This document shows, piece by piece, positions 7,444 to 46,196 of a DNA stretch of 48,241 nucleotides (position 1 is its first letter; each line of letters starts with the position of its first letter). Origin of the DNA: a virus. The translations under genes were made by a program, and so were the position numbers. Where the stretch lies: the IMG/VR virus record IMGVR_UViG_3300013101_000016, positions 1 through 48,241 of that record; one strand, written 5' to 3'. A model generated the notes under the pieces. That model was not told the DNA's origin, did no database searches, and saw nothing but the letters and a program-made list of their open reading frames with translations.

Positions 7444-8388
7444 ATGGTAGATAAAATCAATGATCCTACCGCTCAGGGGGCCGCAGTGCTCCCGCCATCT
7501 GATGCTTTGATTAAGGAGACCCCAGTAAATGTCCCGGCATGGCCCGTTGCGCCACCGCCGGGATTCCAAGTGGAACCTCCTACTCAGCAGACAGTCGAGC
7601 CGGTAGTCACAGCAACCCAGCCGGAGGTCCCGGTCGCTCCCCCGTCATGGATTGACGGAGTTGGTGCGCCAGTAGCTCCGCAGTACCAGGCACCGCCGCA
7701 GTATCAGCCCCCGCCGCAGCCTTACCAGCCGCCGCAGGGACCGCCGCAGGACTACACTGCGCCGCCCGCAGCGGTAGGTGGGATGGACCCGAACGATAGG
7801 GCGCTCTATGAGCTTGTCCATCGGCCGGAGGACTGGGTTCGCGGGATGACCAGAACAGAAGTGCAGAACACCGTTGCTCCTGTCATTGGGCAGGTACAAG
7901 AAGCTACTGCGCAGATGCACAACTACATTAAGACGCAGGCTGACGCGAACGAGCGTGCGGCCAAGAACAACGTAAAGGCACTCTATAGCGAAGTTATAAA
8001 TCAGGATGAGACGTACAATTCCAACCCGCAGGTCAAGGCTGAGGTTGATAGAACTATCCAGAATATGCTGGGTAACAGTATCCACGCGGCACGCAATGGT
8101 GACTTCGGGGATGTTTCGCGCATGGCCGCAATGACGCCGCTTGAAGCAAGGGCGACATTGAACGCAATCAAGACCGTACATGGAGAGCTTGGGACCCAGG
8201 TTCTCGCACCACAGGTTGGGACAGCAGTAGTCGAGCGCCCGACCGCAGCGGCACCTGGACCGTCTGTACCGCTTGACGCCGACGAAGAGGCAGCAATTGC
8301 ATGGCGTGAGCGCGTAGACCCGACATTCAGAGCCCGCTATATCGATGCCAAGAAAGTCGCACTACAACGTGGCGACTGGCAGTTTTAG
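7444..8388 (+). CDS. Scaffolding protein, putative, 314 aa
   Basis: AGGAGG lies a few bases before the ATG. The N-terminal third is disordered and very rich in Pro and Gln (residues 75-110, PPQYQPPPQPYQPPQGPPQD). The C-terminal part is helical (about 135-225, with NTVAPVIGQVQEATAQMHNY). A disordered N terminus followed by coiled coil, placed between portal and capsid genes, is typical of head scaffolds, which shape the prohead and leave before DNA fills it. No sequence family is recognised, so the role rests on context. Confidence 0.65.
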   Translation: MVDKINDPTAQGAAVLPPSDALIKETPVNVPAWPVAPPPGFQVEPPTQQTVEPVVTATQPEVPVAPPSWIDGVGAPVAPQYQAPPQYQPPPQPYQPPQGPPQDYTAPPAAVGGMDPNDRALYELVHRPEDWVRGMTRTEVQNTVAPVIGQVQEATAQMHNYIKTQADANERAAKNNVKALYSEVINQDETYNSNPQVKAEVDRTIQNMLGNSIHAARNGDFGDVSRMAAMTPLEARATLNAIKTVHGELGTQVLAPQVGTAVVERPTAAAPGPSVPLDADEEAAIAWRERVDPTFRARYIDAKKVALQRGDWQF

Positions 8389-8399
8389 GAGGATAACTC

Positions 8400-8927
8400 A
8401 TGGGAACAATTAAATCGCATCTTCCGAGCGTAGAAGATTGGCTCAAGGAAGACCTTATTAGTTCAGCGGGGACCAAAGGGTGGAACCCGCTTCAAGACTT
8501 GCCGAGATTGCTTTGGGAAAAGATCCCGGACCTCAGACAGTTTAAGATCGGATTCTGCTCTGAGGCCGACATACCGATTTGGAAAACCATAGGGTGGGCT
8601 CACATGAGGCGAGACCACTTTGAGGTTGAGAACTTTAACCAGGCCATTGGCCTCGGACTTGGGCTTGACGACTCTGGCGGCATTATCAAACATGGTGAGA
8701 ATTACCTGATGATCATGCCCAAGGAGTATCGCAAGCGCGTGCAGGCGAAGAGGGACGAAATCTTTGAGGACTCGTATAAGCGCATGAGCGAAAGAACTGG
8801 GACCATCGTTGACCGCAACGACCCCCAGAGCGAGGAAATGCTTGAGGACGCTGAGAAGTTTGATTACGGTCTCAAGGAGGAACAGTTCTCTGCTGGCCCT
8901 GCACCCAAGAAGCGAGGAAAGGCCTAG
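8400..8927 (+). CDS. Hypothetical head-region protein, 175 aa
   Basis: AGGAGG upstream (about 8389-8394) supports the ATG. The protein has a globular N-terminal part (residues 1-105; it begins MGTIKSHLPSVEDWLKEDL) and a charged helical C terminus (MPKEYRKRVQAKRDEIFEDS) ending in a basic tail (APKKRGKA). It sits between scaffold and capsid genes, so a head role is likely. No family is recognised. Confidence 0.65.
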   Translation: MGTIKSHLPSVEDWLKEDLISSAGTKGWNPLQDLPRLLWEKIPDLRQFKIGFCSEADIPIWKTIGWAHMRRDHFEVENFNQAIGLGLGLDDSGGIIKHGENYLMIMPKEYRKRVQAKRDEIFEDSYKRMSERTGTIVDRNDPQSEEMLEDAEKFDYGLKEEQFSAGPAPKKRGKA

Positions 8928-8939
8928 AAAGAATAGACA

Positions 8940-9464
8940 ATGGCAGTTACTACCTTGTCGGGGAGCGACCCCCGTCAACCCAAAATCTACCGTGGCGGCA
9001 CTCAGGTAACTGAGATGCAGTACGGTTCGAATGTGGAGATGGATAATGGCACTTTTGCCATAGGCAATTTTGTGTACTCCGTGGCTGACACGAACATCAT
9101 CACCGTCTCCGACAGCGATACTAAAATTCTCGGCCTCGCCGGGAAGGCTAGTTCTGCTGCCGCAACCGGCGCACTCTCCATCCCAGTTCAGCTTATTCTT
9201 CCTGGTGATATGCTTATGATCCAGGTTGAGGATGGCAGTGGGAACGTTGAGGCGTCTGACACCACCTGTGTGGTCGGCAACTCATATGCTATTAAAGACT
9301 ACGCAGCAAACACTCCTTCTCGGATTGACAGCGCCAGCGCTGGCACCGAGGAGCAGTTCGTTTACCTCGGCCCCGTCTACGATGCGGCTGGAGACTCAAG
9401 TTATTGGGGCTGGTTCAGTCCTGATATCGTCGGAACCTATATCCAGACTGCGGACGGGAACTAA
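8940..9464 (+). CDS. Putative capsid decoration protein, 174 aa
   Basis: The protein is rich in beta-prone residues, small residues and threonine/serine (LAGKASSAAATGALSIPVQL around residues 62-81), with a barrel-like pattern. It lies immediately before the major capsid gene, where decoration or stabilising proteins are usually encoded. The ribosome site (AAAGAA) is weak. Its stop lies two bases before the capsid start. A decoration role is inferred from context and composition only. Confidence 0.55.
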   Translation: MAVTTLSGSDPRQPKIYRGGTQVTEMQYGSNVEMDNGTFAIGNFVYSVADTNIITVSDSDTKILGLAGKASSAAATGALSIPVQLILPGDMLMIQVEDGSGNVEASDTTCVVGNSYAIKDYAANTPSRIDSASAGTEEQFVYLGPVYDAAGDSSYWGWFSPDIVGTYIQTADGN

Positions 9465-9466
9465 TA

Positions 9467-10369
9467 ATGAATAACACTTTTACGTTTGCTAAGTCCGTCG
9501 CCCTTGTTGACTACATGGACCCCTTCCGTCAGAAGGAGTCCCAGGTCACTTGGAACCACGCTGCGATTAGCTCGACCAAGAGCACGAATCGTGCAACTGA
9601 GAAGGTCTTCTCGTTCAGCGGGCTGCCTGCCGCGCAACAGACTAAGGAATTGCAGAGCATCTTCTACTCCGACATGGGCGAGCAGGCGGCGACCACGTTC
9701 ACCGTCAACAAGTTCACGCTGGCTACGATGTTCTCCCACGAGTTCCTCAAGGACTCTTGGCATCTGCCCGATATGATGAAGGAGGCTGGCGCTGCCGCAG
9801 GCGAGTCCCACTCCTTCATTCTTGACCAGGCGATGGCCGCTCCGCTTAACCGTGCGTTCAATAGCTCCTACACCATGTATGATGATGTCGAGCTTTGTGG
9901 TACGCACACCATGGCCGATGGCACTAGCTACGACAACGATCTTGCGCCAGCCTCTCTGACGTATGATAACGTCTGGCTCGCCGTCAACCACTTTGAGACC
10001 GCTCCCGTGTCTCATTCCGGCATCTACCTGGCCGACAAGCCCGACTGCCTCGTGTACCACCCCTCGAAAGAGAAAGAGGTACAGGCAATCCTGAAGTCCA
10101 CGTTAGAGCCTGGTACTGCGGACAACGACAAGAACACCTTGCAGAGCTACAGCTTGAAGGCCGTTCCTAACCGTTTCCTCAGCACCACGACCAACTGGTT
10201 CCTCACCGGGACTCGGTTCAAGAACGACTTCATCCGTATCGTGCGTGAGCCCGTGAACACCGCGACCCAGGATGACTTCGACAGGATGGGCATGAAGTTC
10301 CGTAGCTACCAGCGGTTCGCTGTTGGTATCCGTGACTTCCTGTGGATCGTCGGGAACCCCGGAGCGTAG
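9467..10369 (+). CDS. Major capsid protein, 300 aa
   Basis: A protein of 300 residues with the features of an HK97-fold shell protein: an N-terminal arm (MNNTFTFAKSVALVDYMDPF), a spine-helix region (HEFLKDSWHLPDMMKEAGAA, about residues 90-109), a peripheral domain with the long helix LDQAMAAPLNRAFNSS, and a C-terminal region ending FLWIVGNPGA. It lies after scaffold and decoration genes and before a hairpin that may limit readthrough. Hundreds of copies form the head. The ribosome site (GGGAACTAATA) is modest, so coupling with the previous gene may matter. Confidence 0.8.
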   Translation: MNNTFTFAKSVALVDYMDPFRQKESQVTWNHAAISSTKSTNRATEKVFSFSGLPAAQQTKELQSIFYSDMGEQAATTFTVNKFTLATMFSHEFLKDSWHLPDMMKEAGAAAGESHSFILDQAMAAPLNRAFNSSYTMYDDVELCGTHTMADGTSYDNDLAPASLTYDNVWLAVNHFETAPVSHSGIYLADKPDCLVYHPSKEKEVQAILKSTLEPGTADNDKNTLQSYSLKAVPNRFLSTTTNWFLTGTRFKNDFIRIVREPVNTATQDDFDRMGMKFRSYQRFAVGIRDFLWIVGNPGA

Positions 10370-17501: not shown

Positions 17502-18167
17502 ATGGCAAGGCTTACAGCCGATGACATGATTGATATCGTCCGCGACTGCTGTGGCGGCGAGACCAGCGAGACCTTATCTGATACAAGGATACTCAGGTTT
17601 CTTAACGAGGCCGCGCTGAACCTGGCGTCGAAGTACACGTTTGATCAGTTGAGTGCTACCACTCCCATCACCACTGCGGACGGGACCGCTGAGTACACGA
17701 TGGCTGTTGATGACGTTGTTGAGTTCACGGGGATTGTCAACGGCACCAAGAACTTCGAGCTATATCCCATGAATGAGGACCAGTACCTAAGTTTCACGCA
17801 GGGCGATGCTCAGAGCGGAGATCCTAACTATTGGTACGTTGATGGCACCAGCGGCGGCGCATACGTACTGAGGCTCTGGCCCACGCCCAGCAGCGCAGAC
17901 ACCCTCACGGTACACTACACCAAGCTTGAGGAGTTGAAGACCTCTCCGACCGCGACCAGCCTCACCATACCTCGCGTTTGGGACAAGGTGGCGTACCTGT
18001 ACGCAGCATCCTCCGCATGGGAGATGCTTGGTGATTCCGAGCGAGCGGAAACGTTCGTGAAGATGGCAGCACGAAACGAGGCCCAGGCAGCAAAGACGGT
18101 CAAGGTGCCGTCGTACATTCCTGGGTTCCTTGGCTCGCCCGTAGGAGGGGCGATGAAGAATGCCTAA
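17502..18167 (+). CDS. Head-tail adaptor (tail tubular A-like), 221 aa
   Basis: AGGAG lies 7 bases before the ATG. The N-terminal helices (DDMIDIVRDCCGGETSETLS, DTRILRFLNEAALNLASKY) followed by a beta-rich middle (ITTADGTAEYTMAVDDVVEF) and C-terminal helices match the adaptor proteins that dock under the portal, such as T7 gp11 or P22 gp4 types. These form a 12-mer ring between portal and nozzle. The gene directly precedes the large nozzle-like protein and overlaps it by 8 bases, as expected for such pairs. Confidence 0.75.
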   Translation: MARLTADDMIDIVRDCCGGETSETLSDTRILRFLNEAALNLASKYTFDQLSATTPITTADGTAEYTMAVDDVVEFTGIVNGTKNFELYPMNEDQYLSFTQGDAQSGDPNYWYVDGTSGGAYVLRLWPTPSSADTLTVHYTKLEELKTSPTATSLTIPRVWDKVAYLYAASSAWEMLGDSERAETFVKMAARNEAQAAKTVKVPSYIPGFLGSPVGGAMKNA

Positions 18168-21100
18168 CATCAAGTATCACTACATCTCTCTTGGTGATGC
18201 AACGATAATACAGCGTCGTCACCCAAGGGAGATTGAACCGCCTGGGATGGTGAACATAGAGAATGCCATTACCTCAAGATCCGATTCCTCTATAACCATG
18301 AGGCCACCGTGGGTTAGGGTTTATGATGATGTATACGGGTTCTCGTCAGTACTAAATACTGATGATACGGCAGAGCTTAGAGATGCCGTAAACTCTGCCA
18401 CCGGGCTGTACGGCTCTGGTCAGGTATTGTTCTTAACTTCATACATACCATATGGGATCAACAGTGGATCCCCGGCCGTGTTGAGCGACACGCACGGCAA
18501 CGGGTCGTGTTCTCTTATCGAGGGTGAAAATACGGTTGTTGGAACAAACACCGACTTTTATAAAAGGGTGTACAGGGGGGCCATAGTTCGCTTTGAGGGT
18601 CTAAACACGTCATACACCGGGGCTCCGTATCTGTGGCTAATCTCAACCAATACGGATGAGTGGTACATGACAGATCAGGACGAGAACGAGGTTCCGCTTC
18701 AAGGCTCATACATCAGGGCCATCACCGGCGCTTCCCTGTATATGAGGTACGGTGAACCTGGGTCCATGGCCTACTATGGACAAATTGGCGAAGGCGACGA
18801 AGATGCCCTTGGATTTGATGCACTCTATACGAGACTCAGTGGAGACCCGGCCCAAAGAGCCGGAGACTCTTCAAAGTTGTTTAATTTGCAGATGGGAACT
18901 AACATTTCCGGAGCAAAGTACATGTGGACCGATAGCCCAACAACCCCGAACGAGTATTACATGACGGCCAGGGACACCACCGAGCCGGATCTTGTCCCAG
19001 ACTCATGGTCAGGAAGTTCTAGTACCCCGTCGTACATTCGCGTAGTGAACTCTGACAATAGGAGCTATGCTCATCCATTTAATACTCCACTGGATCAGAT
19101 TGGTGCGCCAACTGGGTTTAATTCCGGAGACGTAATAGACTACGGAGAGGTTGAGTCGCTTGCAGACGAGGAATGGGGAATCGGGGATGCCGACTCGCTA
19201 GGGTTCAATACTGTATACTACAGGCTTGATGCGGGAGACCCTGATGCATTGCTTGCCTCGGTTGGATCATCCAGGTGGGACGGCGTTACTGGCGAAGTTT
19301 TAAGCTGGCCGCAGTCAATGGTTTTGAGTGGGTACAAAGACGTTTCTACTAGCGCGACGTACACATGGCAGCAATCAGCAAAAAGTAGAAACACGGGTTT
19401 CTATCTTCCCGGTACAGACACTCCCGTAACCGCATACCTGTACTATCTCAAGATTTCCTCCGGAGATCCAGGCATCCCACACCCGGAAGATATCTATATG
19501 AATGGGAGCAAGCCAAGAAGGAGGAGTGTTGAACTTCTCAAGCCCGGACTGTGGGATGATCAAGAATGGGGATATGGAAATCACACGCTTGATAATCTAG
19601 GATACGATACTATCTATGCTGCCACTTCGTGGGACGGGACAATGGCAAGCGTAGATGTAGAGATCATAATGCCGTTCAGCTACCAATTCTCAGACTACGG
19701 GTGGGCCGCGTCTGCTACATCCGATGAGTATTACATGGTTCAGCAGGATGGGTCAACTGAGATTACAGCGGACTTTAACGAGCCTCATAATGTTTCGCGC
19801 GGGGTAGACGGGAAAATGATACAAGGAACCGTTGGCTCTCTTAGTGATGGCGAATGGGGGTTTGGCAAACTTGCCGGTGATTCCCTTACGTACGATACTA
19901 TCTATGTGGGACTCGACGCAGGAAATCCGGATGACATAGGAATGCAAATGGTTGCCGAGTATGACTTCCAAATCTACTCCAGCAAATACAAGTGGACGGA
20001 GAGCGGTACCTCAGATATGTGGTACATAACGCTATCAGATGGCTCTGACCCAAGCATATCCCTGCCAACGAATCTCAGCCTTGACGGGTATGAGTATACC
20101 TACGTAACCATGCAGATTCTTAGCCCGAATGAATGGACATACGGGAACGAGGACTCGCTTGGTTTCAATACGATATACGTGTATGCAGAGTCCTCCCCGG
20201 ACGGGGCCATCGGGACCGGCGAAAACGATGAGACTAAGCCAGTCAAGATTGTTATCAAAGACGCATCTTCTGACTTTGACTACTACATGGTTGACAAGGT
20301 AAATGGTAACGACGATCTTCTCATATCAGGATTGGCCGTATCGTCCATCAGCGATTCAAAGCCGGTATTCTACTACAACCACAATCCGTATCGGTCTAAA
20401 TACAAATTCAACATCCAGTCATACACGCAAGGGCTGATCTACAATACGCCAAGCAATGAAGGAGATGTCAACCGAGAGGACATCAGCGGGCCGTTCTACG
20501 CCGGTCTTCAAAAGGGAGACTGGAAGTACCAGTCGAAGGTGCTGATTGACAAGGAGTTTGAGGGAACTGGAGTAACCTTCAATGTTCAGCCTCTTCTTGC
20601 TGGAAGTGGATCCTCGTACTTACAGGCTTTTCAGTGGATACAGGATGAGGCTGACGATTCATTCTATATCGCGCGCAATTTCCTTGCACTATCGTATGGC
20701 CTTTCCGGTCCGTGGGAAAAGGCTTACATAAATACGCATGGCGACCAAGAAGGCACTCTGATTGAAATAGATGGAGATTACCAAAGCAAGGTCGTATTCA
20801 ACGGGATGAAGGCGTATGGGTCTACATACATAGCTCCAGTCATTGATTGCAACCTTGACTCGCCAGCGACATCTTCACTTCCAGGCTATGCGCACTCCAC
20901 TGACGCCTTTGGCCTTGAGTGGGACATGCATACAGATAGCGCATATGAGTGGAGCACGGCAGGCAGAGCGAAGGTGCCTGCTGACTGGGAGCCAATTGCC
21001 GTTGCGTGGAATGGAGACTCGCCAGGAAGGATTGTCCTTCTTTACTGGCAATCAACTACCAACAGGGTTACGGTTAGATATACTGACGACGATGGGACCA

Positions 21101-23586
21101 CCTTCAACGACGCCGCCGTGGGAGGAGCGCCCAATTACTTCGTTGGCGATGAGACCAGCCGTGTTGATTATTTTGGTGGTCAGTTCATAATCACAAGGTC
21201 TTCTGGCTTGTATTATGGAGACGGCACGACATTCACAGAGAAATCACTTACCGGGAGTGATTACACATCAGTAGCATACAGCCCAACACAGGGATATGCG
21301 GCCCTTGACAGGGCAGCTAAGAAGGTTAATACAGCACTAGATGTTTCTGGCACCTGGACACTTACAGATCTTCCTGTCCCGGAGTATGCTGGTGCCGTTG
21401 AGTGGCTGATGTGGGATACCTATGGAGAAAGGTGGGTTGTAAACTTAACCGGTGGGATGATGTGGACAAGCACACTAGATGTAGATGATCTTACGGGATA
21501 CCCGCCGTGGCTGTCGGAGCCAATCCTGGACTCGGGAGAGGGCGCGTCACAGAAGGAACCAACCAACATGGTGTCTGACGCCGGTGGCCTGCTGTGGTGT
21601 ACGTACGATGGCGGGGCATACTATTTCAGACATATCAGATCAACTAGGTACTCGTACTACTGGTGGGATGTTGAAAAGTTTGTGCCGCTCAGTAAAGATT
21701 TCAGGGCACAGACATTTTCTGTTCTTGATGGATACGTTGTCCTCATCGGCACCAGCGAGAGAACATGGGATAACATAGACTATGACAAAACAGAATCGCT
21801 GTCACCTAACCCGTCGTTTGACGACGAGGAGAAGGACTTCACCTTTGCTGCGATGACAAGCCTTGGTGATCATGGCATAAAACCAGAGACCGTAGTTGCT
21901 ACCGCGACCCTGACCGATGGCACCATTGAAGAGATAACTGATGACGGGGCCGGAGTCCTCAAGGGAACCGTAAGCGCAACCGGAACAATCAGCTATGAAA
22001 CCGGCATCATGGTTGTCATCTTTAATGACATCACTGCGGCGACCGGCAGCACCTTTTCAGTCAGATACACTTATCTGATAGAGGGCGACACAACCGGATG
22101 GGAGTACCACCCGAGGCGCATCAGGTGGACGGCCCCCAAAACGTATGATGACTTTGAGGGCGTGGGATCTGGTACTGGAGATGCCAGCGGAGACGGAGCG
22201 TTTCTTGATTCAAGGCCGGTCAATGGAAGGATAGTCGTCTTTGAAACAAGTGCAATAACATCCATTGTGCCCAGGGGTGACGTCTTTGATCCGTGGGATT
22301 TCGATACCATAAGGAGCGGAGTGAAGCTTCTTAGCAACCCAGTTGTGGTTGATGACAAGTGCTACTTCATAGCGACTGACGGACTTCTTTGGGAGACTAA
22401 CGGGATAGACGCCAAGGAATCAGGGTCGTCATATGACGCAACACTATATGATGATTTCAATGAAGAGGGACCGGTCTTTCTTGATTACTCAGTTGAATTG
22501 AACTCTTTACTTGTCTACCACTTCGACCTGGCCGCAGATGTTCCTGCTGTTTACACAATTAGCTTGGCTGTAGGAACCGTAACCAAGTCGTCCCTACCGT
22601 TCATTCCTGATGATGGCGTACTGGCAAAGAGGGCGGCAAGCGTGTTCGCGGTATCTAATTCAGACGACGAGACCATCTACGGATCTCACCACCCGACAGA
22701 CTCAAACGATGACAAGGTTGTTCTGTACTCTTTGTCTACAGGATTTGGAGTAACCGGGGAGGACATCCCAATGTCTGGTGTTGAATCCTATTATCACTCA
22801 ACGATTGAAACCGGCGAGTTGTATCTAAACCCGGAAGGCAAGAAAACGTCACTAAAGAATGTTACTGTTAGGACATTCGTTAGCGACGACGAGGGGGCAG
22901 GCCTACCAGTTATCGCGCTTGAAGTAAAATCAAATGAGGATGCAGACTGGACCAGCGAGGGAGATACTGCCGGGACCACAACTATTAGCACCACGACGTG
23001 TACCGGTGCCTCTACCGCATGGAGCAACCTGATTGCTGGTCCGAACTCTGGCGACACGCAGCAGAAGTGTAACGGTGTTACCGTGCTCTTCACCCTCCCG
23101 TGTCTCGCAAAACAGGCAAGGATATACCTTGACAGCACACTTCTCGTGGAGGGCACAGACTACGCCAATGGTGCCACCAACTCAATCTCGTTTGGCGGCG
23201 CTTACACCCCCCCGGCCGCAGATGAAACTCTCTACGCATACTGGGACGTGATGCCCGAAATCAGGGTAGCTGTCGGGGATGTGTACAAAAGCTCAGAGGG
23301 GTTCCATAGAATAGAGTCTATCGAATCTGCGCAGGACATCACCCTTGACCACTACATGTCTACAGGGTCGGATGCTGCGCCAGTCCACTACCCAACCACG
23401 GAGATGCCGGTTGGTAACGCTGAAACGAAGCTTGGGCTAAACAAGCTAGTCGAGGGTGTCTCAATTCGTTTATACGTTATACCAAAGTACAACACTGATC
23501 CAACCCCCGAGATTGTAAAAGTAACGGGGATTTCTATCGGACACATCCCCCAGGGAAGCAAGATACTACAGGCAACAGGGAGTTAA
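18160..23586 (+). CDS. Giant nozzle-like tail protein with repeated modules, 1808 aa
   Basis: Follows the adaptor directly, the place of the tail nozzle in podoviruses. T7 gp12 is about 800 residues, so this protein is more than twice as long. Five copies of a motif of the form EWGxGxxDSLGFxTIYxRL occur near residues 207, 337, 466, 561 and 656 and mark inserted or tandem beta domains that probably stand out from the tail tube. The N terminus (DATIIQRRHPREIEPPGMVN ENAI) and a propeller-like region (about 920-1500, with YWWDVEKFVPLSKDFRAQTF) resemble nozzle proteins. The C terminus (VSIRLYVIPKYNTDPTPEIV) is beta-rich. The exact family is not assigned. Confidence 0.7.
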   Translation: MPNIKYHYISLGDATIIQRRHPREIEPPGMVNIENAITSRSDSSITMRPPWVRVYDDVYGFSSVLNTDDTAELRDAVNSATGLYGSGQVLFLTSYIPYGINSGSPAVLSDTHGNGSCSLIEGENTVVGTNTDFYKRVYRGAIVRFEGLNTSYTGAPYLWLISTNTDEWYMTDQDENEVPLQGSYIRAITGASLYMRYGEPGSMAYYGQIGEGDEDALGFDALYTRLSGDPAQRAGDSSKLFNLQMGTNISGAKYMWTDSPTTPNEYYMTARDTTEPDLVPDSWSGSSSTPSYIRVVNSDNRSYAHPFNTPLDQIGAPTGFNSGDVIDYGEVESLADEEWGIGDADSLGFNTVYYRLDAGDPDALLASVGSSRWDGVTGEVLSWPQSMVLSGYKDVSTSATYTWQQSAKSRNTGFYLPGTDTPVTAYLYYLKISSGDPGIPHPEDIYMNGSKPRRRSVELLKPGLWDDQEWGYGNHTLDNLGYDTIYAATSWDGTMASVDVEIIMPFSYQFSDYGWAASATSDEYYMVQQDGSTEITADFNEPHNVSRGVDGKMIQGTVGSLSDGEWGFGKLAGDSLTYDTIYVGLDAGNPDDIGMQMVAEYDFQIYSSKYKWTESGTSDMWYITLSDGSDPSISLPTNLSLDGYEYTYVTMQILSPNEWTYGNEDSLGFNTIYVYAESSPDGAIGTGENDETKPVKIVIKDASSDFDYYMVDKVNGNDDLLISGLAVSSISDSKPVFYYNHNPYRSKYKFNIQSYTQGLIYNTPSNEGDVNREDISGPFYAGLQKGDWKYQSKVLIDKEFEGTGVTFNVQPLLAGSGSSYLQAFQWIQDEADDSFYIARNFLALSYGLSGPWEKAYINTHGDQEGTLIEIDGDYQSKVVFNGMKAYGSTYIAPVIDCNLDSPATSSLPGYAHSTDAFGLEWDMHTDSAYEWSTAGRAKVPADWEPIAVAWNGDSPGRIVLLYWQSTTNRVTVRYTDDDGTTFNDAAVGGAPNYFVGDETSRVDYFGGQFIITRSSGLYYGDGTTFTEKSLTGSDYTSVAYSPTQGYAALDRAAKKVNTALDVSGTWTLTDLPVPEYAGAVEWLMWDTYGERWVVNLTGGMMWTSTLDVDDLTGYPPWLSEPILDSGEGASQKEPTNMVSDAGGLLWCTYDGGAYYFRHIRSTRYSYYWWDVEKFVPLSKDFRAQTFSVLDGYVVLIGTSERTWDNIDYDKTESLSPNPSFDDEEKDFTFAAMTSLGDHGIKPETVVATATLTDGTIEEITDDGAGVLKGTVSATGTISYETGIMVVIFNDITAATGSTFSVRYTYLIEGDTTGWEYHPRRIRWTAPKTYDDFEGVGSGTGDASGDGAFLDSRPVNGRIVVFETSAITSIVPRGDVFDPWDFDTIRSGVKLLSNPVVVDDKCYFIATDGLLWETNGIDAKESGSSYDATLYDDFNEEGPVFLDYSVELNSLLVYHFDLAADVPAVYTISLAVGTVTKSSLPFIPDDGVLAKRAASVFAVSNSDDETIYGSHHPTDSNDDKVVLYSLSTGFGVTGEDIPMSGVESYYHSTIETGELYLNPEGKKTSLKNVTVRTFVSDDEGAGLPVIALEVKSNEDADWTSEGDTAGTTTISTTTCTGASTAWSNLIAGPNSGDTQQKCNGVTVLFTLPCLAKQARIYLDSTLLVEGTDYANGATNSISFGGAYTPPAADETLYAYWDVMPEIRVAVGDVYKSSEGFHRIESIESAQDITLDHYMSTGSDAAPVHYPTTEMPVGNAETKLGLNKLVEGVSIRLYVIPKYNTDPTPEIVKVTGISIGHIPQGSKILQATGS

Positions 23587-41931: not shown

Positions 41932-42043
41932 CTTTGACTCCAATCCAGGCGTACATTAGCGGGAACATGCACAATACAACGCCTATGATAAGGTGCATGA
42001 CGGGGAGTGAGACACCAAGCGCAGTCACTACCCAGTTCAACAT
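41891..42043 (-). CDS. Small membrane protein, 50 aa
   Basis: The ATG follows AAAGGATGGTGACAC. The product begins MLNWVVTALGVSLPVMHLII and continues with GVVLCMFPLMYAWIG, giving one long or two short membrane segments, then a basic tail (KDGVRNLFGINRRG). It overlaps both neighbours (7 bases upstream, 41 bases downstream). It lies just downstream of the amidoligase cassette. Confidence 0.55.
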   Translation of the reverse strand: MLNWVVTALGVSLPVMHLIIGVVLCMFPLMYAWIGVKDGVRNLFGINRRG

Positions 42044-42336
42044 GTGTCACCATCCTTTAGCTTATACGCCGCAATTAACTCTGCCTTTGCCTCGCTAATA
42101 CTGATGCCCATGTTGCACAATAACATACCGAATAGCAGGTACATTTTGCGCAGTAAGTCTGTCCTTTTATTAACGCCATCATCGAACAATGCCTGCACCA
42201 CACCACGCGCTGGATCACCATCATGAGGCAACATTAGCGTAAGAATACCACTAACATATCGCTTCATGTCATCATCGTGTAGGTCGTGCATCACTGCATA
42301 GATTTCATCGACCGCACTCTTATAGTTATCATGCAT
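42037..42336 (-). CDS. Hypothetical helical protein, 99 aa
   Basis: ATG 42336 has AAGGAG 8 bases upstream. The protein is helical with a hydrophobic patch (LRKMYLLFGMLLCNMGISIS, residues about 62-81) and acidic loops (HDLHDDDMKR). It overlaps the upstream gene stop by 8 bases. It directly follows the zinc-ribbon protein of the amidoligase cassette and may belong to it. Function unknown. Confidence 0.55.
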   Translation of the reverse strand: MHDNYKSAVDEIYAVMHDLHDDDMKRYVSGILTLMLPHDGDPARGVVQALFDDGVNKRTDLLRKMYLLFGMLLCNMGISISEAKAELIAAYKLKDGDTC

Positions 42337-43423
42337 TGAACTCACTCCTTACATATTTCATGACGTCATCGACGCTGGTATCGTCCATCATGTCATTGAT
42401 AATTCCCAGCAGTTGGTACCTCACATCATGCGCAGTCATGGCACGAGCCAAGCGGTTGAACCCCCAGTCCACGCTCCCGGCGTATGTAATGTTTTGAAAT
42501 ACCATATGCGTGTGTATCATTGTGTTGTACAGTGGGACCGCAAGCTCCTCAAGGTAGTCCGTTCTCTTGGTAAAGAAGAAGCGGCACATCTCCTCGCTGT
42601 TGCGAAAGGACTGAGCTGCAATGTACTTCTTCCTTAGATCGTTAAGACAATTGGCATCTCCGATGAGTACTGACTGTTCTCTATTTGCCATAAGCCTCTC
42701 TCCGTACTCCTCAATGAATGCTATGTATGCATCGAACGAGTTGTTTCCTATGATAGTACTGCACTCAACCCAATCCGCACGAGTCATGTCTGTAAGCTCA
42801 AAGAACTTCTTGCAATTGAGTATACGTTTGAACCTGTGCCCAGTAGCATTATCGAAGTGGATATCAGGCAACCAGAACGCAAGACCGTTCCCGCCCTCAC
42901 ATATACCGACCTTCCCATCCCTCGCAAGAAGGAGGAGCTTGGTAATGTTGTTCATCAGCACATCGACACCAATTGGGTTTCCCATGAGTGTGTTACCATC
43001 AAGGTGGGCGTATCCATCTTCTACACCAGCACCACCAAAGTAAGCACCACATGTTTGGCATGACTGAACACCAATTGATATCCTGCTACACGCAGGGCAC
43101 ATGGCGGCCGTCCCGTCACATCTTGCTACCCTGGATAGGTAGCTGGTCATGCCATTTACGTCCTCGAAATTCCCATCAAAGATCTTATCCCATGCGGAAA
43201 TGAAGTCTCGATACAACTTCTCGCCATCCGCATTATTAAGCAACTCCTTGACGTTGGTTGGCTGTCCATCGCCGTCTTCTCTACAGTACTGCATTCTGTC
43301 AATATCCCATCTATTAGATGGGGTAGAGTACATTAGTATGGCACCAGTAATGAAGTCATACGTGTACAGGTAGTTGTCGAACTGATTGCCGCGCACCCTA
43401 ACATGTCCGCATTGGTTAGGCAT
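42329..43423 (-). CDS. Unknown zinc-ribbon protein of the amidoligase cassette, 364 aa
   Basis: AAGGAGGTGACG precedes ATG 43423. A four-cysteine ribbon (CPACSR ... CQTCGAYFGG) lies at about residues 107-127, followed by a large helical and mixed domain with recurring Asn/Asp (VLMNNITKLLLLARDGKVGI; WVECSTIIGNNSFDAYIAFI). No catalytic motif is recognised. It is joined to the amidotransferase gene by an 8-base overlap, so the products are expected in similar amounts. It may supply or bind the substrate of the ligase, or be the protein that is modified; this is an inference from context. Confidence 0.6.
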   Translation of the reverse strand: MPNQCGHVRVRGNQFDNYLYTYDFITGAILMYSTPSNRWDIDRMQYCREDGDGQPTNVKELLNNADGEKLYRDFISAWDKIFDGNFEDVNGMTSYLSRVARCDGTAAMCPACSRISIGVQSCQTCGAYFGGAGVEDGYAHLDGNTLMGNPIGVDVLMNNITKLLLLARDGKVGICEGGNGLAFWLPDIHFDNATGHRFKRILNCKKFFELTDMTRADWVECSTIIGNNSFDAYIAFIEEYGERLMANREQSVLIGDANCLNDLRKKYIAAQSFRNSEEMCRFFFTKRTDYLEELAVPLYNTMIHTHMVFQNITYAGSVDWGFNRLARAMTAHDVRYQLLGIINDMMDDTSVDDVMKYVRSEFNA

Positions 43424-44429
43424 CGTCACCTCCTTCTACTGTTTCGTATCCGTAGTAATCAAGGTACTCATTGATCTCATCGTCGTTGAGCTTGCCTCGA
43501 ATGTGCTTCCCCTCTGCCCATATCCCATTTTCACCTATGCCAAAGGTGGTCTCGGGACTGAGACAGCACGGGCATTCAGGATGTGTGTGTCCGTCTCTCT
43601 TGTACCAGTTTTCTGACTCCAGCCATGTGAAGTCATGCCTGCACTGGTAGCAATAGAACCTATCATACTCAAGGAATGGAGGCAGCTCACCACGGGGGAA
43701 TGGGATAAAATCCTCAAGCTCATCATCCTCCCCCGCCGCCTCCTCATCCTTGAACTTTTCCCATTTGCTTTCAAGATCGTGATCTCTGTCCTCGTCCACG
43801 TCATTGGTCTCTTCGTAGTAATTGTCGGGATCATAGAACGAGGACCGATCAAGCTTATCGTCGTACGCCCATCCACTCCTGCTATATGTTGCCTTCCAGA
43901 ACGAGTTGCTGAACCAGCACCCGTTGTCTTCCCACTGGCCCGCACCCTCATTGATGATAGATAGATGACCTTCCCTGTTTAGGAATACCAGTTTGTTAGA
44001 CTGGCCTATGTAATCCTCCATCATGAGGCGAATGCCGCTGTTGGATAGGAAATTTCTCGGCAGTTGCTTTAAGACGTACCTGTTGAACACTTGTGTATCG
44101 GAGATCGTACTGAATTCCTTTGTGAAATCCATCACCCCGTTATGAGCAAACACAAGCTGTTGCGGGAACACCCAAAATGGATGAGTGTTCTCCTCGTTGA
44201 TGCCACCATGGGTAGCGATGCGGAAGTGAACGATGGCTGGTATCTTACTCCAGTCTCTTGATTCCCAAAATCCCTCAAAGGAATCCCACTCCATGAAGCC
44301 CTTCTCAATGAAGATCTTCCCTTTATCACACCATGCTACCCCGGCACCCTGGTTGTTAGAATCCCAACATTTATGAAGTGTTTTAATATCCAGGTTAGAG
44401 CCTATCGGCTTTGCAATCACTACACACAT
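43416..44429 (-). CDS. Class II glutamine amidotransferase, 337 aa
   Basis: AAGGAAGGATAGTTA precedes the ATG. Met1 is followed by Cys2, the N-terminal nucleophile of Ntn glutamine amidotransferases. Other class II motifs: NNQGAGVAW (25-33), VHFRIATHGG (67-76), FAHNGVM (94-100) and SDTQVF (110-115). Such domains release ammonia from glutamine. A second part (about 190-337) is acidic and ends in a CxxC ... CPCC ribbon (FYCYQCRHDFTW; HPECPCCLSP) that may tether it to the ligase. It lies directly downstream of the amidoligase gene, the expected partner. Substrate unknown. Confidence 0.82.
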   Translation of the reverse strand: MCVVIAKPIGSNLDIKTLHKCWDSNNQGAGVAWCDKGKIFIEKGFMEWDSFEGFWESRDWSKIPAIVHFRIATHGGINEENTHPFWVFPQQLVFAHNGVMDFTKEFSTISDTQVFNRYVLKQLPRNFLSNSGIRLMMEDYIGQSNKLVFLNREGHLSIINEGAGQWEDNGCWFSNSFWKATYSRSGWAYDDKLDRSSFYDPDNYYEETNDVDEDRDHDLESKWEKFKDEEAAGEDDELEDFIPFPRGELPPFLEYDRFYCYQCRHDFTWLESENWYKRDGHTHPECPCCLSPETTFGIGENGIWAEGKHIRGKLNDDEINEYLDYYGYETVEGGDDA

Positions 44430-44447
44430 TAACTATCCTTCCTTTCT

Positions 44448-45647
44448 TCACCGCAACTCGGCAAGCATTGGGGCGAACATGCTACAGAACGCCGGGTAAA
44501 TCTTGCGGTTATCATTAGCATACCGCACAAAGTTCTCGACTCTCATATCCCTCAGCCCGTTGTGTCTGGAGAATTGGAACGCAGCTTCCATGAACTCCAT
44601 GTTTGCGAAGAACCCTGTTGGTGACAGGGTGCCTCGGAAGATCCGACACTCTATAGTGTTATCAGGACAGAAGTTAATAGCGTGATACCTGCCCTGAGAT
44701 GCGTTATTCCGACTCAATACCATAGCAGACAGCTTGCATGAGAGCTTGGTCTTTGCCCACTGCTCCAAGCGGTCGGGCCTGCGTCTCGATACCGAAAGCA
44801 CCATATCCTCATTCTCGTAGAACAAGTTGGCGAATTTGTATCTATGCAGTCGAGACACGAAACCGAACCGCCCTAAGTGGACATGCATACCGCACTCCTG
44901 GGCTGAGAATGACCGCGCTAATCCAAAGCGCTCCAGGCTGAACATGTTATCAAACCTTTTCTTGTTTTTGTTCATCCAGTTAAAAGTGAATGGTAGCGTG
45001 GCTATCTCGAACCCGTTGCAGACTGAACCATCTTCCATGTAGTACAAGAACTCATCTTCATTACCCTCATCCAGAATGTCAATACATTCCTGAATTTCAT
45101 TCGTGACAAGCTCTACTTCTACTCCATACGTGGCAATGCCTTTTTTTGGCGGTTCTGAGGTAACAGATGTACCACCGGCACCATCAGCGTAGAACCGAAT
45201 TGTAGGAGCGTAATTCCACGAACGAATGCCCTCACTCCCGCTCTCACTGTAGCAGTAATCACATAGAATTTGGTCATCTCTACAATAGACATCTTCCCTG
45301 TAGATTATAGCCTCACAGTTGTCACAATAGCAGTAGATCTCTTCGAAACACTCCTGGCAATAATAATCATAATTGTGAGACACTGAATCATCGATCCAAA
45401 TTTCCTCATTGCAATTATCGCAGAAGACCACGTTTTCCTGATAGCATGAGTCGCACATGATATCATTGTCGAAAGAATGTGTGCCCTCGGTCTCGACCTC
45501 AATACCGCAGCCATCGCACGAGCAAACGAGGTCACTTAGGCAGCATTCACAAACTGTCTGCTCAAGTATCTCAGAGTACTCCAATTCATCTTCCGGGTAC
45601 TCCTCCTCACATACTTCACAGATTGGTAGACTTTCCTCATCAGGCAT
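44448..45647 (-). CDS. Amidoligase (COOH-NH2 ligase) with N-terminal zinc-ribbon array, 399 aa
   Basis: ATG 45647 follows AAAGGAGTTGCCT. Residues 1-135 contain repeated CxxC knuckles (CEVC, CECC, CSCDGC, CDSC, CDNC, CQEC, CYCDNC, CDYC), probably several zinc ribbons. Residues 170-399 match the Amidoligase_2 family of the glutamine synthetase-like fold: YGVEVEL (174-180), MEDGSVCNGFEIATLP (204-219), ECGMHVHLGR (251-260), RYHAINF (320-326) and TIECRIFRGT (331-340). These residues bind ATP, metal and the carboxylate substrate in relatives. The enzyme likely makes an amide bond using ammonia or an amino donor; the neighbouring amidotransferase could supply ammonia. Own promoter at 45673-45701. 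Confidence 0.82.
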   Translation of the reverse strand: MPDEESLPICEVCEEEYPEDELEYSEILEQTVCECCLSDLVCSCDGCGIEVETEGTHSFDNDIMCDSCYQENVVFCDNCNEEIWIDDSVSHNYDYYCQECFEEIYCYCDNCEAIIYREDVYCRDDQILCDYCYSESGSEGIRSWNYAPTIRFYADGAGGTSVTSEPPKKGIATYGVEVELVTNEIQECIDILDEGNEDEFLYYMEDGSVCNGFEIATLPFTFNWMNKNKKRFDNMFSLERFGLARSFSAQECGMHVHLGRFGFVSRLHRYKFANLFYENEDMVLSVSRRRPDRLEQWAKTKLSCKLSAMVLSRNNASQGRYHAINFCPDNTIECRIFRGTLSPTGFFANMEFMEAAFQFSRHNGLRDMRVENFVRYANDNRKIYPAFCSMFAPMLAELR

Positions 45648-45672
45648 AGGCAACTCCTTTCTCCACCCTACT

Positions 45673-45701
45673 AGGGTAGCAGATTGAAAGCACATTGTCA
45701 A
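45673..45701 (-). promoter_or_regulatory. Promoter of the amidoligase cassette with a palindrome at -10
   Basis: On the minus strand: TTGACA (45701-45696), a 17-base spacer ending TGC, then TACCCT (45678-45673). A perfect 13-base palindrome, ACCCTACTAGGGT (45665-45677), covers the -10 box and is a likely operator. TGCTACCCT is also present at the sites at 46.36 and 47.01 kb. Confidence 0.65.
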
Positions 45702-45746: not shown

Positions 45747-45974
45747 CTACTTATCAATTAGGGCCGCAAGATCTTGTAGGATGCCAGAGTATGATTTTCT
45801 CGACTCTGGAGACATTCCGAACAATCTATTGGAACCATCCTCGGCCTTACAAATAAGCTGGTATGCGTCCGTGATGAGATCTCTGGCTGTTTGGATGCTT
45901 ATCTCGGCATCATCGAGACAGCTAGAAGCTTCGTCCACGCCCTTTCTTGCCTGTCCAAAGTAATTGCTTTCCAT
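45747..45974 (-). CDS. Helical hypothetical protein, 75 aa
   Basis: GGGAGGACTC precedes ATG 45974. The protein is a helical bundle-like sequence (ISIQTARDLITDAYQLICKA) with a C-terminal ILQDLAALIDK. It is first after the long leader from the promoter at 46225 and stands alone before the amidoligase promoter. Its small size, position and strong ribosome site suggest an early regulatory role, but no motif confirms it. Confidence 0.6.
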   Translation of the reverse strand: MESNYFGQARKGVDEASSCLDDAEISIQTARDLITDAYQLICKAEDGSNRLFGMSPESRKSYSGILQDLAALIDK

Positions 45975-45984
45975 GAGTCCTCCC

Positions 45985-46196
45985 TTCTGAGACGAGGTCC
46001 CGAGATTTGCTCGGTCCAACCCCGCGTAGCGGGGAAGGTATCATCTCTATTCAAGGTCACTAATCAGAGCCGACGACGGTACCGGGAAACCAAATCACAG
46101 GTTTTACGCCGACCCTGAATACTGAACTCGAATCAGTAGAGCTTTCGCCAATGTGTTGAGAGGGTATCAATAGTCTTGATCCCTACCAACAGAACT
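45985..46196 (-). other. Long structured 5' leader without an ORF
   Basis: About 200 bases between a predicted transcription start (near 46190) and ATG 45974. Hairpins: CCGAG/CTCGG (46000-46014), CCCCGC-GTA-GCGGGG (46020-46034), a 6-bp stem with a 7-base loop (46120-46138), and an 8-bp stem with a single bulge (46162-46183). No tRNA fits. A regulatory leader or small RNA is possible. Confidence 0.45.

Follow-up and report, generated by a model that had tools for sequence, protein, structure and literature searches.

The IMG/VR virus record IMGVR_UViG_3300013101_000016, analyzed here over its whole length as one window of 48,241 nucleotides (nt), encodes on its minus strand a predicted ligase of the glutamine synthetase (GS) type with an N-terminal array of zinc knuckles and, directly downstream, a predicted class II glutamine amidotransferase. 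Comparison with related sequences gives good support to the view that these genes form a recurrent two-gene unit. We propose, with a probability of about 45%, that this module carries out glutamine-dependent, ATP-driven amidation of carboxylates and that the substrate docked by the zinc array is a macromolecule, probably a protein. The gene that follows the pair, which a preliminary description of this DNA had placed in the same system, is a lineage-specific companion and should not be counted in the conserved system.

The zinc-array ligase and its amidotransferase

The ligase is a well-supported, divergent relative of the Amidoligase_2 family, to which the preliminary description had assigned it from its motifs. 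This assignment holds, not by a direct match to the Pfam profile (PF12224), which misses the protein, but through intermediate sequences and the fold. The window ligase matches phrog_16683 (4e-21), a family whose member in Clostridioides phage AR1086-1 (L003 in our numbering of the fetched loci of ligase relatives) matches PF12224 at 1e-11, and the same profile is matched by 38 of the 39 members of the ligase alignment. The motifs YGVEVEL, CGMHVH, and IECRIFRG are real, being invariant or nearly so among the 39 relatives. Residues G175, E177, E179, D206, S208, E214, H255, H257, and R289 are invariant in this alignment, and N325, T331, E333, and R335 are nearly invariant, the last two being present in at least 90% of the rows. 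The ExE, HxH, and ExR active-site motifs of Amidoligase_2 are therefore all kept.

The AlphaFold model built from the 39-row alignment reached a mean pLDDT (predicted local distance difference test) of 90.6. Compared with the PDB using Foldseek, it matched glutamine synthetases, YbdK, and GmaS (gamma-glutamylmethylamide synthetase) with E values of about 1e-4, and PafA and Dop were also among the structural matches; among viral models, the best match was a phage amidoligase (4e-27). Judged from sequence and model, the C-terminal domain (residues ~170 to 399) is a GS-type carboxylate-amine ligase.

The N-terminal part carries eight CxxC motifs, at residues 10, 33, 44, 65, 76, 97, 108, and 129, spaced first by 23 and then alternately by 11 and 21 residues, which gives a period of 32. 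This spacing is unlike that of classical LIM domains. The LIM proteins LMO2 and PINCH were found among the PDB structural matches of the model, with low template modeling (TM) scores, 4 of the 39 alignment members matched the LIM profile (PF00412), and one of the viral-model matches already bears the name "LIM domain containing protein." At least two N-terminal CxxC motifs were present in 83 of 88 ligases. LIM-like arrays usually bind proteins, which suggests a protein substrate.

The second protein was described as a class II amidotransferase with Cys2 as the nucleophile, and this was borne out. GATase_4 matched it above the Pfam cutoff (27.6 versus 23 bits; 1.7e-6), a profile of 30 amidotransferase relatives matched GlmS (6e-13) and PurF (9e-11) in the PDB, and the residues C2, R70, T73 (in THG), HNG, and D111 are kept. 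The protein is thus a predicted glutamine amidotransferase of class II, and its catalytic residues are intact, as are those of the ligase. It shares with the glutaminase domains of GlmS and PurF the N-terminal cysteine, the arginine, HNG, and the aspartate, but it differs from them in being a separate polypeptide with a zinc ribbon and a GS-type ligase as partner. Only about half the distinct lineages have the C-terminal ribbon, which in the window protein has its CxxC motifs at residues 260 and 286.

Linkage and spread of the pair

Relatives were sought in viral contigs with the ligase alignment, which found 577, and the best 80 of these 577 were kept. Single-sequence scans of the viral contigs with each window protein gave no matches, only the alignment query being successful, and a query alignment built from diverse amidotransferases proved too variable for scanning. 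Ligase relatives are encoded in 577 viral-contig and 265 genome-contig stretches. Of 82 loci, mostly viral, whose downstream sequence was long enough, 71 encode an amidotransferase directly downstream of the ligase. In bacterial loci, mostly from Clostridia of the Oscillospiraceae/Ruminococcus kind, an amidotransferase lies near the ligase in 64 of 73. The median gap between the two genes was 2 nt over 53 distinct lineages, and across the same number of lineages the distance matrices of the two proteins were correlated (Mantel r = 0.78; permutation maximum, 0.12). The linkage of the two enzymes, noticed originally in a single genome, extends to their nearest relatives.

None of the fetched loci encodes a ligase-amidotransferase fusion protein, and no further partner gene recurs in them. 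The commonest neighbors are serine recombinases, which adjoin the ligase in 14 of 60 ligase lineages, and lineage-specific small genes. Outside the lineage of the window phage, the module consists of two genes.

Several loci carry more than one copy. The viral contig IMGVR_UViG_3300035698_009306 (L038) encodes, between positions 1793 and 13068, four amidoligase open reading frames (ORFs) and three amidotransferases arranged as adjoining pairs (1793/2944, 5713/7128, and 10776/11504, then 12319); the ORF at 7999-9273, after the second pair, is RtcB-like by eye. In another locus (L026:4364-7836), two zinc-array amidoligases in tandem are followed by one amidotransferase. The genomes of Ruminococcus flavefaciens and Butyricicoccus pullicaecorum (L127, L132, and L146) each encode several near-full-length zinc-array ligase paralogues. 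The multiple paralogues and the serine recombinase neighbors suggest a mobile element.

The third gene and the surrounding locus

The ligase (399 amino acids [aa]), the amidotransferase (337 aa), and the third protein (364 aa) are encoded consecutively at 42329-45647 (Table 1). The preliminary description gave the cassette as 42329-45701; its three genes are there, but its upper bound is not, since the ligase starts at the ATG at 45647, preceded by AAAGGAG, and the TTG at 45701 is simply the longest-ORF start of that frame. Positions 45648-45701 are accordingly upstream sequence. Tight or overlapping junctions were confirmed: the ligase and amidotransferase genes are 18 nt apart, the amidotransferase and third genes overlap by 8 nt, and the third gene overlaps a 102-aa ORF by 17 nt.

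Table 1. Features of the ligase locus, with window coordinates
Feature	Coordinates	Strand	Basis
Predicted ligase, 399 aa; zinc array at residues 10-132, ligase domain at ~170-399	44448..45647	-	phrog_16683, AlphaFold, Foldseek
Zinc-knuckle array of the ligase	45251..45620	-	CxxC positions, LIM profile and structure matches
Predicted class II (Ntn, N-terminal nucleophile) glutamine amidotransferase, 337 aa; Cys2 nucleophile, C-terminal zinc ribbon	43416..44429	-	GATase_4, PDB profile matches
Third protein, 364 aa; one zinc ribbon, outside the recurrent module	42329..43423	-	Best family match phrog_4203
102-aa ORF, kept in the collinear phage	42037..42345	-	29% identity, E = 1e-13, to L013:9115-9441

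A separate promoter for the cassette, also part of the preliminary description, was rejected. The site beside the ligase combines TTGACA with a -10 element matching at 3 of 6 positions, and the best promoter-like site (46225-46197; 11 of 12 matches) lies in front of another ORF; its score was reached in 0.17 of simulations, so that the site is no rarer than expected by chance. The ORF following this site (90 aa; 45747-46019) lies upstream of the ligase, has a weak match to DUF3813 (E = 0.003), and is without a clear equivalent next to the ligase of the closest phage. Nor does the cassette end where it was drawn, at the third gene: the same-strand block runs on through the 102-aa ORF, exonuclease VIII, DnaB, a RusA-like resolvase, and an integrase. 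The pair also stands beside replication genes in phages MEP401/402 and in L013, L023, and L026.

The closest phage is the IMG/VR contig 3300028920_000110 (L013; G001 as a whole genome), a collinear whole-phage relative. Its identity to the window is 33% for the ligase, 38% for the amidotransferase, 50% for DnaB, and 54% for the terminase, and it differs in having a third-slot gene without sequence similarity. This gene (L013:8096-9160; 355 aa) has a similar size and similar overlaps, but its alignment with the third protein scores the same as shuffled sequence (z = -0.26), whereas the flanking genes are clearly homologous. The 22% identity of a gapped alignment of the two proteins was therefore rejected as homology.

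All three proteins of the window carry zinc-type CxxC motifs, as described earlier. The ligase has eight, the amidotransferase two, and the third protein two, which form one ribbon (residues 109 and 122). The preliminary description proposed that the ribbons might join the three in one complex. The membership of the third protein in the system did not survive the search for relatives. None was found in 50,697 phage records (tblastn), in the viral-contig pattern scan, in the fetched loci, or in 35 whole related virus records, and a search from its positional counterpart in L013 found only itself. The neighborhood survey proposed for this 364-residue partner thus returned neither relatives nor any recurrent third gene. 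The best family match was phrog_4203 (9e-4), a family of unknown function, and the AlphaFold model, built from a two-row alignment, was unusable (pLDDT, 30). The lack of relatives and of similarity to the same-slot gene of the closest phage places the third protein outside the module, and the slot holds either a very fast-evolving gene or exchangeable genes.

On the plus strand, the window encodes a terminase, a portal protein, and an internal virion protein, and its gene content appears podovirus-like. The structural module includes an ORF of 1808 aa (18160-23586) that is ~34 to 38% conserved in the collinear phage. A 300-aa protein (9467-10366) is 75% identical to its counterpart there, while the rest of the genome is mostly at 25 to 55%; its position would fit a major capsid protein.

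Comparison with known cassettes and proposed function

The window ligase shares the GS-type fold and the ExE, HxH, and ExR motifs with the Amidoligase_2 proteins of phages tf, CW02, and AR1086-1. It differs from the phage ligases in L003, L007, and L008 by its LIM-like zinc array and by lying below Pfam detection. Among its closest described parallels are the pairs of the Mycobacterium phage Marvin group (phrog_22302 and phrog_25883) and of MW202733.1, in which a zinc-finger amidoligase is likewise directly followed by a class II amidotransferase. These are direct homologues of both window enzymes, but they have fewer zinc knuckles, ~24 to 30% identity, and no third gene of the window type. 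Related pairs in the OM43 phages MEP401/402 and in Marvin have been described as an amidoligase and a GATase of unknown role.

Other published cassettes (phiEco32, LUZ24-like phages, Pseudoalteromonas HP1, and phiM6) combine an amidoligase and an amidotransferase with an ATP-grasp protein and a gamma-glutamyl cyclotransferase (GGCT), and some such cassettes were proposed to remodel peptidoglycan. Those of phiEco32, LUZ24, phiM6, and StenR_269 resemble the window in that a single gene block holds both an amidoligase and a class II amidotransferase, but they add the ATP-grasp ligase and the GGCT, neither of which was found in the window. Neither the window nor 42 of the 43 other virus records with a zinc-array ligase contained GGCT (PF06094), which was present in all four control phages, where the ligase has no zinc array; its absence from 43 of these 44 records means that a gamma-glutamyl peptide pathway is not indicated. 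No ATP-grasp protein of the phiM6/StenR_269 type was detected in the window or the fetched loci by a single-sequence search of limited sensitivity, in which the two phage ATP-grasp queries matched just each other. The pair is thus a variant of the phage amidoligase/GATase kind, equipped with a zinc array and unlike the described cassettes.

GS-type ligases activate a carboxylate as an acyl phosphate, and class II amidotransferases supply ammonia. On this basis, glutamine-dependent amidation is the best reading of the pair, and formation of an amide bond from ATP and glutamine-derived ammonia is the chemistry predicted from the two families. The N-terminal cysteine of the amidotransferase would hydrolyze glutamine and hand the ammonia to the ligase, in whose GS-type active site ATP would activate a carboxylate for amide formation. 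Docking of the macromolecular substrate, which is most likely a protein, would fall to the LIM-like array, and this array may hold the amidotransferase as well. Since the pair stands at the head of a replication and recombination block, early action on a target of host or phage origin is probable. In favor of this reading are the resemblance of the amidotransferase profile to the ammonia-channeling GlmS and PurF and the presence among the structural matches of the ligase of PafA and Dop, two enzymes whose site of action is a protein carboxylate.

Some observations weigh against it. The match of the ligase to GS-type structures is remote (TM score of ~0.3 over the whole chain), and LIM-like folds suggest protein binding without proving it. 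The linkage counts were drawn from the nearest relatives only, so the rate need not hold for all 577, and L003, L019, and L079 have no detectable amidotransferase nearby, so this partner may not be obligatory. An extended version, in which the array picks a host protein whose carboxylates are amidated (or conjugated) in early infection by a system found in hundreds of phages and other mobile DNA, and the third-slot genes could be fast-changing adaptors or targets, seems unlikely.

The pair could also be a minimal form of the phage cell wall cassette, in which peptidoglycan precursors would have their peptide side chains altered by the ligase, while the amidotransferase gives ammonia or trims, so that superinfection is blocked. 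The two genes do occur together in the phiEco32, LUZ24, and phiM6 cassettes, for which this role was proposed, and the account in PMC3267633 offers MurT/GatD of Staphylococcus aureus as a precedent for glutamine-dependent amidation of peptidoglycan. We nevertheless find this explanation rather doubtful, given the distribution of GGCT, the failure to detect the ATP-grasp protein in the search described above, and a zinc array that would be unusual for a lipid II substrate. Reversible conjugation is another alternative: the ligase would work like PafA, joining a protein carboxylate to an amine or amino acid, and its partner, acting as an amidase, would take this group off again or release a gamma-glutamyl group. 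The structural similarity to PafA and Dop also fits this, and class II amidotransferase folds can serve as gamma-glutamyl hydrolases, as in EgtC, which removes a gamma-glutamyl group in ergothioneine synthesis. However, the amidotransferase profile matched GlmS, PurF, and other class II chains in the PDB, and no EgtC-named chain up to E = 10. We consider such a role quite improbable.

We give similarly low odds to the production, against host defense or for host takeover, of a small metabolite resembling a peptide or of some other small-molecule amide. Synthesis of peptide metabolites was predicted for amidoligase families (Iyer et al. 2009, as cited in PMC10580990), the unit is found on phages and beside serine recombinases in bacterial elements, and the adjacent pairs of L038 might build more than one amide. 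Against such a pathway stands the lack of any recurrent partner beyond recombinases and lineage-specific small genes and of a GGCT or, within the sensitivity of that search, an ATP-grasp protein. No PADLOC family matched either, and a defense system was rejected on this result.

Amidation of a protein by the two-gene module thus remains our preferred reading. The zinc-array ligase is common, and its nearest relatives almost always carry the amidotransferase as well. If protein amidation is true, the pair would represent a phage-encoded modification chemistry that could be tested with two purified proteins, and a protein-targeted branch set apart from the cell wall hypothesis that is repeated for all phage amidoligases.

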